Assembly (NCBI RefSeq): GCF_025790165.1
Contig: NZ_CP094970.1
Location: 1,240,001-1,304,000 of the forward strand
Direction: 5' to 3'
From: Solicola gregarius
GTDB taxonomy: Bacteria; Actinomycetota; Actinomycetes; Propionibacteriales; Nocardioidaceae
DNA: 64,000 bases
This document shows positions 22,722 through 33,694 of this stretch, in pieces; position 1 is the first letter of the stretch; every line of letters begins with the position of its first letter. Under the pieces are notes generated by a model. The model saw only the letters and a program-made list of their open reading frames with translations. It was not told the DNA's origin and ran no database searches. Both the position numbers and the translations under genes were made by a program.

Positions 22722-22734
22722 GAGGCACTCCCAG

Positions 22735-22778
22735 GACACCGTCTTGTCGCGTTTCCGGGTACGGTGCGCTCGTCCGGG
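22735..22778 (-). promoter_or_regulatory. Guanidine-III (ykkC-III) riboswitch
   Basis: On the minus strand the segment reads CCGGACGAG, CGCACCGU, ACCCGG, AAACGCG, ACAAGACGGUGUC. This is the ykkC-III pattern: CCGGACGAG pairs with ACCCGG, and the GCACCGU strand pairs with ACGGUGU as the pseudoknot, with the conserved ACAAGACGG. It ends 13 bases before the sugE ATG, so the aptamer is placed to expose or hide the ribosome site (GGGAG). Guanidine binding should turn sugE on. Confidence 0.92.
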
Positions 22779-22825
22779 AGTCGGCAGAGTGGCCGCCTCT
22801 AGCTCAATTCTAGCAAGGCGTTGCG

Positions 22826-30440: not shown

Positions 30441-30562
30441 CGTACGGTCCCGCCCACCCGGCCCGTTCGCGGTCGGCGTACCGCGACCACCGGAAATGTG
30501 CTTGTCCGGCTGAACGCCGGGGCGTAGCGTCGTGCTTACACGGGAAGGAGGTGGTCCAGTTA

Positions 30563-30601
30563 ATGTTTGACTCTTGGACACGTGAGGTGGCTGTCCGCTA
30601 G
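30563..30601 (+). CDS. 12-codon ORF with extended Shine-Dalgarno
   Basis: ATG 30563 to TAG 30601 encodes MFDSWTREVAVR. It is preceded by GGGAAGGAGGTGGTCC (30542-30557), nearly the full complement of the 16S rRNA 3' end, much longer than at any other gene here. The stop is followed by two strong stems (30668-30718 and 30757-30805). A gene or leader peptide this short cannot be proven from one sequence, but the ribosome site makes translation likely. Confidence 0.5.
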   Translation: MFDSWTREVAVR

Positions 30602-30889
30602 CCGCTGACGCGTCGGGACTACTGCTGACGTGGTGTACACGTGGCGGCGAATCCCCGACAGTCACCCGGCCCGCAGGGGGTTGCGTGAGTCCGCGCGACC
30701 ATTCCAACCCTGCGGGCCGTCCCATGTCCGCAGACCGGTACCTCGGAACAGACGAAACTCGGCGTCCCGGGTACGGCCCCGTGGTCCGCGCCCGCAACGC
30801 CGAGTCCCCGATTTCGTTGCGTGACTTCATCATCACGCTCCGTACGCGTTTCCGCATCTCGAAAGCGTCCGGATCGCAAGATGGGTGTC
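30602..30889 (+). other. Structured leader region between the 12-codon ORF and the cobalamin riboswitch
   Basis: No convincing gene. Two perfect inverted repeats: GGCCCGCAGGG/CCCTGCGGGCC (30668-30678 and 30708-30718) and ACTCGGCGT/ACGCCGAGT (30757-30765 and 30797-30805). An open frame with ATG 30724 gives YLGTDETRRPGYGPVV and ISLRDFIITLRTRFRISKA, but it runs into the riboswitch and has no good ribosome site. Confidence 0.5.
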
Positions 30890-31096
30890 CAGGTCGAGGG
30901 ACGCGGCCTAACCTGGAGACGCAGCTGGTTCGGCCGATCCGCCCGCGGATCGGTCGCTAAGAGGGAACCCGGTGTGAGTCCGGGACTGCCCCGCAGCGGT
31001 GAACGGGAACGAACGTCGCCATCGGCACTGGGTCGAAAGGCCCGGGAAGCGGCGACCAGTAGGCATGCGTCACGCCCGTGAGTCCGAAGACCTGCC
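30890..31096 (+). promoter_or_regulatory. Cobalamin (B12) riboswitch
   Basis: The class I/II core is clear: CTAAGAGGGAACCCGGTG (about 30957-30974), GAGTCCGGGACTGCCCCGCAG, CACTGGG and CCCGGGAAG, and the closing GAGTCCGAAGACCTGCC (31080-31096). The closing helix is CAGGTC (30890-30895) with GACCTG (31089-31094). It lies upstream of the B12-independent methionine synthase gene, so adenosyl- or methylcobalamin should switch metE off. That implies a B12-dependent MetH elsewhere in the genome. Confidence 0.93.
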
Positions 31097-31384
31097 AGCG
31101 CACCGGGCACCGAACGCCCGGTGGCTCGTGGGCAGACCGTGTCTGCTCATTCGGCGTCGAACAGGGAGCGGGTCTCCGCGCCCGATCCGGCAAGGCGTAG
31201 GAGCGACAATGGAGCTGATCCTCCCTTGAGCGACTGCAACGCAGCCGGTCGGGATGTGGAGGCACGCGAGCCGACGGCGGATGAGTGGACGCGGTCTGAG
31301 GCGGAAGATCGCGGCGGCCGTGCGTGCTGCTGCACACCTTTCGCCACGGGCGGCTACCGACAAGCTCGCGAGGGTTGAGCAGAT
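31097..31384 (+). other. Leader between the B12 aptamer and metE
   Basis: 288 bases separate the end of the aptamer from the metE start. It contains CACCGGGCACCGAACGCCCGGTG (31100-31122), an inverted repeat CACCGGGC/GCCCGGTG directly after the aptamer, a candidate expression platform. The remainder shows no gene. This is a long distance for direct control of the ribosome site, so control of transcription is more likely. Confidence 0.5.
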
Positions 31385-33694
31385 ATGACGACAGAATCCC
31401 CCATCGGCGCCACCGTCCTCGGCTATCCGCGCATCGGACGCGATCGAGAGCTCAAGCGGGCGCTCGAGGCGTACTGGGCGGGCGACGAGGACGCGACCCA
31501 CCTGCACGCGGTCGCCGAGGCGACCCGCATCGACGCACTCGACACCATGACCGCCGGCGGCCTCGACTCCGTCCCGGTCAATACGTTCTCGTGGTACGAC
31601 CACATCCTCGACACGAGCGTGCTGGTCGGCGCGACGCCCGAGCGCTTCGCCGCGGTCGAGCCGAGCGGCGACCTCCTGGCCGGGTTCGACGCCGCGACCT
31701 ACTTCGCAATGGCGCGTGGCGTCGCGGACGTACCGCCGCTCGAGATGACGAAATGGTTCGACACGAACTACCACTACCTGGTGCCGGAGATCTCGCCGGA
31801 CACCGTCTTCGCCCTGCGGGCGGACAAGCCGTTGCAGGAGTACGCCGAGGCGTCCGCTCGGGGCGTCAACGCTCGCCCGGTCGTGGTCGGACCGTTGACG
31901 TTCCTGCGGCTCGCGAAGGCCGCCGACGGCGCACCGGCCGGTTTCGACCCGCTCGACCGGCTCGACGACCTCGTCGGCGTCTACGCGGAGCTGCTCTCCG
32001 TCTTCGCCGAGGCGGGTGTCGAGTGGGTACAGCTCGACGAGCCCGCTGCCGTCCTCGACCTCGACCCGGAGGAGCTGAGCCGGCTGCAGCGGGCGTACGA
32101 GCGGCTCGGCGCGATCGAGGGTCGCCCGAAGCTACTGGTTTCGACGTACTTCGCCGATCCGGCAGGGGCGCTGCCGGCACTGGCGGCCACTCCGATCGAC
32201 GCGATCGGGATCGACATCGTGCGTGGCACGACCGTCGCGGGTGTCGCCGGGGTGCCCGGCATCGCCGACAAGACTCTCGTGCTCGGCGCCGTCGACGGGC
32301 GCAACGTGTGGCGTACCGACCTGCGTCGGCGACTCGGTGAGCTGGTGCCGTTCCTCGGCGCCGCCGGGGCGATCGCGGTCGGCACGTCCTGCTCGTTGCT
32401 GCACGTGCCGTACGACGTCGAGCGCGAGACCGGGCTGCCCGAAGGCCTGCGCGAGTCACTTGCGTTCGCCGACCAGAAGATCGCCGAGGTCGTCGCCCTG
32501 CAACGTGCGTTGACGCACGGGGCAGATGCCGTACGCGCGACCCTCGACACTTCCGACCGGGCAGCGGCCGGCCGCGCAAGCATTCCGGGCGTACGCGACG
32601 AGGCGGTCCGGCAACGGCTCGCACTCGTCGACACCGAACAGCGCCAGCGCCCGGCGCGGGCCGAGCGCGCCACGGCGCAGGCGGAGCGGTTCGACCTTCC
32701 CGCGCTGCCGACGACGACGATCGGCTCCTTCCCGCAGACCGCAGGCGTACGCGCCGCGCGGGCGCAGCTGCGCGCGGGCACGATCGGCGACGACGAGTAC
32801 GTCAAGCGGATGCACGCGGAGATCCGGCGCGTGATCGACCTGCAGGAGCGCGTCGGTCTCGACGTGCTCGTGCACGGCGAGCCCGAGCGAAACGACATGG
32901 TGCAGTACTTCGCGGAACGGCTCGCCGGGTATGCGGCCACGACGTTTGGCTGGGTGCAGTCGTACGGCTCGCGATGCGTACGACCGCCCATCCTGTACGG
33001 CGATGTGGTGCGCCGCGACCCGATCACCGTCGGCTGGACCCAGTACGCGAGCGCGTGCACGACGAAGCCGGTCAAGGGCATGCTCACGGGCCCGGTGACC
33101 ATGCTGGCGTGGTCGTTCGTGCGTGACGACCAGCCGCGCTCGGTGACGGCCGACCAGGTCGCGCTCGCGTTGCGCGACGAGGTTGCCGACCTCGAGCATG
33201 CCGGCGTCGGCATCGTGCAGGTCGACGAGCCCGCGTTGCGCGAGCTGCTCCCGTTGCACGTCCGCGATCGGAAGGCGTACCTCTCGTGGGCGGTCGACGC
33301 GTTCCGGCTCGCGACGAGCGGAGTCGCGACGTCGACGCAGATCCACACGCATCTCTGCTACTCCGAGTTCGGCGACATCGTCGAGGCCATCGACGGGCTC
33401 GACGCCGACGTCACGAGCATCGAGGCGGCGCGCTCGCGGATGGAGGTGCTCGGCGACCTGACCGCACGCGGGTTCGGCGGCAAGGTCGGGCCGGGCGTGT
33501 ACGACATCCACTCGCCGCGCGTACCCGAGGTCGCCGAAGTATCGGCGCTGCTCACCGCGGCGCTCGACTCGGTGCCCGTCGACGGGCTATGGGTCAATCC
33601 CGACTGCGGGCTGAAGACCCGCACGTACCCCGAGGTCGAGGCGGCGCTGACCAACCTGGTCGCTGCGGCGCGACGTGCCCGCGACGCTCTGTAG
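31385..33694 (+). CDS. metE: Cobalamin-independent methionine synthase
   Basis: 769 residues, full length. Two homologous barrels: the N-terminal barrel opens with [21 protein letters not shown], the C-terminal one with [10 protein letters not shown]. Zinc ligands are in [12 protein letters not shown] and [11 protein letters not shown] near the C terminus, and [14 protein letters not shown] binds the methyltetrahydrofolate. It transfers the methyl group from 5-methyltetrahydropteroyl-triglutamate to homocysteine. ATG 31385 with weak ribosome site GAGGGTTGAG. Regulated by the B12 riboswitch upstream and followed by a palindromic repeat. Confidence 0.97.

Follow-up and report, generated by a model that had tools for sequence, protein, structure and literature searches.

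Small RNAs that are at once structured and translated are exemplified by SgrS/SgrT and SR1/SR1P, in which a conserved peptide has a function of its own and is encoded by an open reading frame (ORF) distinct from the base-pairing region. In leader-peptide attenuators (trp-type attenuators and antibiotic-sensing uORFs), ribosome movement over a mini-ORF selects the RNA structure. The 6S and Ms1 RNAs are structured actinobacterial regulatory RNAs of about 200–300 nt. Transcripts of Ms_IGR-5, a small RNA of Streptomyces and Mycobacterium, have been detected in M. smegmatis, S. lividans and S. avermitilis (PMC10454040, PMC8079986, PMC8780764). Ribosome reads over MS_IGR-5 in M. abscessus and M. smegmatis placed it among ribosome-protected non-coding RNAs; the same study found ribosome reads on classical ncRNAs and leaves open whether the footprints represent translation (PMC4974804). 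An ORF of Ms_IGR-5 is named in no paper that our literature search found.

We analyzed a window of 64,000 nt from Solicola gregarius (contig NZ_CP094970.1, positions 1,240,001 to 1,304,000). A cmscan of the window matched RF02471 (Ms_IGR-5, “Actinobacteria sRNA”) with 104 bits (E 2.6e-22) over model positions 1–184 of 184, a full-length copy above the curated cut-off (gathering score) of 45 bits. It is the only copy in the genome. An earlier reading of this DNA from its letters alone (henceforth the sequence-only reading) had offered a small RNA as one option, and the match bears this out: by its sequence, the RNA is one free-standing copy of Rfam Ms_IGR-5. The window copy is an ordinary member, and the finding concerns the Ms_IGR-5 family as a whole. 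We are very confident of the joint claim that the RNA is Ms_IGR-5 and that its ORF is translated. Our first guess, Ms1/6S RNA, was rejected. IGR-5 and Ms1 are listed as separate RNAs (PMC10454040), and RF02471 alone matched at 30538–30725 in the Rfam scan, with no match there to a 6S-type family model. On RNA polymerase binding, a trait of 6S/Ms1 RNAs, we consulted PMC11077062, whose main text does not mention IGR-5. The features at the 5′ side of the locus are as follows.

30502–30507, + strand: predicted -35 element TTGTCC; a TTG near -35 is conserved in relatives
30525–30530, + strand: predicted -10 element TAGCGT, with a 17-nt spacer from the -35
30538–30725, + strand: Ms_IGR-5 RNA (RF02471), placed by cmscan, with its 5′ end inferred at ACAC
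30545–30557, + strand: extended Shine-Dalgarno (SD) AAGGAGGTGGTCC, 13 contiguous pairs with the 16S 3′ end
30563–30601, + strand: 12-codon ORF, ATG to TAG, encoding MFDSWTREVAVR, supported by frame controls, the codon table and other phyla
30584–30589, + strand: GAGGTG within the ORF, complementary to the 16S anti-SD, invariant and 9 nt before the stop

We searched related genomes for this block, the check that had been suggested for it, and found RF02471 in 49 of 58 relatives; the outcome that had been named as refuting the observation, a block missing or poorly conserved in relatives, was not seen. It was present in 249 of 394 genomes of the class and in 57 of 296 genomes of a phylum-wide sample. 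In genus g19 of the window's own family (f1), the RNA is missing from nearly all sampled genomes even though these are complete, which is probably a natural loss. We also built a covariance model (R1) and ran it on 12 genomes reached through pattern hits. Eleven of the 12, which came from records of acidobacterial, zixibacterial and spirochaetal origin, held a single copy each; the remaining genome, reached by a chance pattern match in Bacteroidaceae, yielded no R1 copy. In phylum samples around the acidobacterial, zixibacterial and spirochaetal genomes, R1 detected the RNA in 36 of 199, 42 of 118 and 7 of 149 genomes, respectively, and in 0 of 148 genomes of a Bacteroidota-centred sample.

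The RNA appears to have its own promoter. Among 90 loci from non-redundant relatives, TANNNT occurs 12–14 nt before the ACAC start in 84, and the -35 TTG and the -10 occur jointly in 67 (0.69 expected from shuffles). The -10/-35 pair at a fixed distance in relatives agrees with the small intergenic RNA with a promoter of its own that is expected of an Ms_IGR-5 member. Most loci also have a conserved A-tract upstream of the -35, at about -44 to -41 relative to the RNA start, that resembles an UP element.

The sequence-only reading had called the SD almost fully complementary to the end of the 16S rRNA and unlike that of any other gene. Both points hold. AAGGAGGTGGTCC pairs with the genome's own 16S 3′ end (GGATCACCTCCTT) at 13 contiguous positions, including one G-U. 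A pattern search of the 4.9-Mb genome found AAGGAGGTGRTC only three times: at the Ms_IGR-5 SD, antisense within a coding sequence and antisense to the 16S 3′ end. Because the latter two sites are both antisense, no other gene has such a ribosome site. As a general feature, an internal anti-SD mimic that sequesters the SD was rejected (mean complementarity 8.4 nt vs. 7.9 nt in shuffles); strong complementarity of this kind is sporadic, for example in loci L231 and L229.

We assessed whether the 12-codon ORF, which had been noticed behind the SD, is conserved as a reading frame. The tested loci were gathered by covariance model without any ORF requirement and include 90 non-redundant actinobacterial loci (<85% identity). 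The frame test required ATG, GTG or TTG 5–16 nt after GGAGG and an open path from there to the GAG codon. In frame 0, 84 of the 90 loci passed, compared with 21 and 0 in the other two frames; after shuffling of the loop only, the mean was 14.7 and the maximum 25 of 90. All 45 loci from the other-phylum genomes passed (at most one of 45 in other frames), as did nine of nine further zixibacterial-side loci. The actinobacterial start codons are ATG (41), TTG (32), GTG (13), CTG (2) and ATC (1), and one locus has none; locus L234 lacks an accepted start codon at the right place. By eye, six of seven exceptions to a first ORF filter showed either an uncommon start codon or a residue substitution. 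The ORF has 12 codons in 80 of the 90 loci, with the rest mostly at 13–15, and its stops are TAG (82), TGA (6) and TAA (2). In the other phyla, ORFs of 10–19 codons begin with ATG, GTG or TTG. The stop lies exactly five codons past GAG in 133 of the 135 loci and in all nine further zixibacterial-side loci. ORF length moves in codon steps (10–19), and the spacing between SD and GAG covers almost all values between 36 and 51 nt. In a larger pattern-based set, 167 of 168 loci have an ORF that ends in E-V-A; that scan required TGAGGTGGCT, so the set was used only for start, length and stop and not for codon conservation. In the acidobacterial-side loci L258–L261 the ORF has 19 codons, and three of them (L258, L259, L261) carry an additional GAGGTG in frame (S-E-V) upstream of the usual one. 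The conservation of frame, start and stop, with the ribosome reads on homologues, indicates an ORF that is conserved and translated, as in dual-function sRNAs. Selection has kept its start, frame and stop across at least four phyla.

The fold of the RNA was examined by covariation, and the paired segments are listed here.

30539–30541, + strand: helix D 5′ strand at the RNA 5′ end, pairing with 30582–30584 (covariation)
30582–30584, + strand: helix D 3′ strand in ORF codons 7–8 (covariation, mutual information)
30576–30579, + strand: pseudoknot strand GGAC in ORF codons 5–6 (covariation)
30689–30692, + strand: GUCC of the hairpin-T loop, the other pseudoknot strand (covariation, mutual information)
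30586–30595, + strand: helix B 5′ strand in ORF codons 8–11 (covariation, mutual information)
30657–30666, + strand: 3′ strand of helix B, GACAGTCACC, directly preceding hairpin T (covariation, mutual information)
30667–30678, + strand: 5′ arm of terminal hairpin T, one of two perfect 12-bp arms (covariation)
30708–30719, + strand: 3′ arm of terminal hairpin T (covariation)
30679–30700, + strand: inner stem-loop of T, GGTTGCG/CGCGACC, which presents the GUCC loop (window sequence, folding)

We aligned the 90 actinobacterial loci with MAFFT by sequence only and then scanned the alignment for mutual information (MI) without reference to structure. The scan recovered helix D, helix B, the pseudoknot and the terminal hairpin T; besides the hairpin, the top column pairs were 3-55, 66-192, 5-53, 52-230, 64-194 and 4-54. 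Helix D is 98.3% paired, with 32 double-change cells vs. 4.8 in shuffles (0/500) and MI z of 9.7–14.9. The pseudoknot core is 97.8% paired, with 4 double changes vs. 0.1 in shuffles (0/500) and MI z of 10.7 for an extended pair; it is so conserved that few independent changes back the pairing. All ten pairs of helix B form in the window, and the inner stem of T has 7 bp (30679–30685/30694–30700). Jointly, helices D, B, C and T and the pseudoknot pair in 91.0% of cells, with 304 double-change cells vs. 86 in shuffles (0/500). The same helices in 39 non-actinobacterial copies gave 250 double-change cells vs. 79, a comparison that leans towards the model because this alignment was fitted to its structure. 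The Rfam model begins with a hairpin GGUCC/GGAC (helix A), whereas our data strongly support the 5′-end helix and the pseudoknot instead. Helix A is 96% paired and has zero double changes and no excess over shuffles; it was rejected as a supported fold for want of covariation and is retained as a possible alternative state only. For the window sequence, the fold z-score is -3.8 vs. dinucleotide shuffles, and thermodynamic folding agrees on helix B (0.71) and T (0.91–1.0). MFE folding of the same sequence prefers a different pairing of the 5′ region, with a probability of 0 for helix D.

Two perfect inverted repeats had been reported. The first stands, as the 12-bp arms of T inside the RNA; the second (30757–30805) is only 78% complementary. 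It lies outside the Ms_IGR-5 model, is kept with stem changes in a genus-mate (L011) and may serve as a terminator or as a 5′ element of the metE mRNA.

In the covariation-based fold, the SD and start codon are placed in the loop left between the helices, and codons 5 to 11 are locked in structure, so that the ORF forms the structural core. From this geometry, a ribosome that translates the ORF has to open helices D, B and C and the pseudoknot, and the folded RNA is untranslatable beyond codon 4. Folding and translation thus draw on the same bases, and past that codon the one excludes the other.

We weighed several explanations for a translated ORF in this position. In a dual-function sRNA of the SgrS/SgrT or SR1/SR1P type, the 12-residue peptide would be the active product and the RNA structure secondary. 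The conserved ORF and its nearly invariant C-terminal E-V-A/T fit such a role, but the pattern of changes is that of RNA pairing and not of selection on a peptide. The GAG and GTG codons (E, V) are each 90/90 at the nucleotide level, with zero synonymous changes; codon 7, which encodes R, C, S, L, G, E, Y or P, changes together with the RNA 5′ end; and the N-terminal half is unconserved in a peptide of 10–19 residues. RNA pairing therefore accounts for the majority of the conserved positions in the ORF. We did not see selection for a particular peptide sequence, the other property expected of a dual-function sRNA; beyond pairing, selection appears to preserve initiation, an unbroken frame and termination, with little sign of acting on the peptide. 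SgrS/SgrT and SR1/SR1P share with Ms_IGR-5 that one small RNA is both structured and translated. They have a conserved functional peptide and an ORF apart from the base-pairing region (PMC11133741), whereas the Ms_IGR-5 ORF is the structural core and its peptide is unconserved. We consider an active peptide improbable. Still less credible, and the least probable explanation that we weighed, is an ordinary non-coding sRNA in which structural conservation has produced an ORF by accident. The conserved bases of the ORF are indeed mostly paired, yet the start falls in an unpaired, length-variable loop, and an in-frame ATG, GTG or TTG is nevertheless found there in 129 of the 135 loci (90 actinobacterial and 45 from other phyla), compared with at most 25 of 90 for shuffled loops. 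The sequence-only reading had also proposed a leader peptide or a ribosome-sensing attenuator for the divergent MFS or metE region. A short ORF followed by stem-loops does resemble an attenuator sensing something for the next gene, and metE (31385–33694) lies downstream on the same strand. Across 158 loci, however, the following gene shares the orientation of the RNA in 74 and runs against it in 84, and the neighbours vary by genus (aminotransferase and nitrobindin-like genes in mycobacteria; elsewhere pyridoxamine-phosphate oxidase, citrate synthase or an ABC transporter). With neighbours this variable, attenuation of metE or MFS is not supported, and the conserved co-oriented downstream gene of leader-peptide attenuators was not found. 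In the window, metE (B12-independent methionine synthase) is preceded by its own cobalamin riboswitch (30909–31113, + strand), an ordinary arrangement separate from the Ms_IGR-5 RNA. Zixibacteria copies carry a T run directly after the terminal hairpin, as expected of a terminator; actinobacterial copies have no T run there. On genomic context we reject cis control of metE or MFS, and we judge a cis-acting leader of any kind very improbable. What stands of the leader-peptide proposal is an ORF that is apparently translated and whose translation must open the fold; what falls is the gene regulated in cis. Ms_IGR-5 shares with leader-peptide attenuators a structure that may be set by ribosome movement over a mini-ORF and differs from them in controlling no downstream gene in cis.

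The best explanation overall, which we hold to be likely, is an autonomous, trans-acting Ms_IGR-5 RNA containing a mini-ORF that is kept for its translation. Within this explanation, a gating role of translation is a tentative proposal. Where initiation capacity is ample, translation would hold the RNA open; if translation or initiation slowed, the RNA could snap into the compact pseudoknot, which would be its stable or target-binding form. In almost all loci GAGGUG precedes the stop by 9 nt, a distance comparable to the one between an SD and its start codon. Within helix B, GGUG is under stronger conservation than the strand with which it pairs, which points to an additional constraint. These features suggest that a terminating ribosome is held briefly by the internal SD-like GAGGUG, and such a hold at GAGGUG-N9-stop might be part of the cycle. 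The active state could instead be the open form, with the GAAUCC...CAGUCACC strand exposed as a seed, or ribosomes might be the chief target of the RNA. In a rival reading the RNA is a ribosome decoy: SD and start would trap 30S subunits or initiation complexes, with movement through the ORF serving only for their release. The 13-nt complementarity to the 16S tail, which persists across phyla, and the second anti-SD-complementary GAGGUG within the ORF speak for a decoy. Against it, a decoy needs neither an exact frame nor a stop at an invariant distance, and a single-copy RNA would need very high abundance. We rank gating above a decoy, which we think unlikely, and both above a functional peptide. 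With gating, the RNA possibly acts in trans as a sensor of ribosome availability. More broadly, and just as tentatively, it may be an ancient free-standing sensor of translation capacity, spread over at least four phyla, in which translation is kept for its mechanical effect and not for the peptide, and GAGGUG holds the terminating ribosome.

The RNA family itself is known, whereas its translated ORF, revised fold and cross-phylum spread appear undescribed in the literature that we found; a search for such an RNA across phyla returned nothing. Relative to the Rfam description of Ms_IGR-5, the analysis adds a translated ORF and members outside Actinomycetota. A catalogued “non-coding” RNA of most sampled actinomycetes, including mycobacteria and streptomycetes, is very probably translated, with its ORF interlocked with its fold. 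Its presence in acidobacterial, zixibacterial and spirochaetal genomes as well suggests that its function is ancient, basic and linked to the ribosome. If gating is true, Ms_IGR-5 would represent regulators through which moving ribosomes act on a free RNA rather than on a downstream gene. In a viral collection, one contig of 13,993 bases (L243) carries a single match to the SD...GAGGTGGCT pattern. Elsewhere in the window, a Guanidine-III riboswitch (RF01763) was detected at 22733–22801 on the - strand with 49.7 bits.
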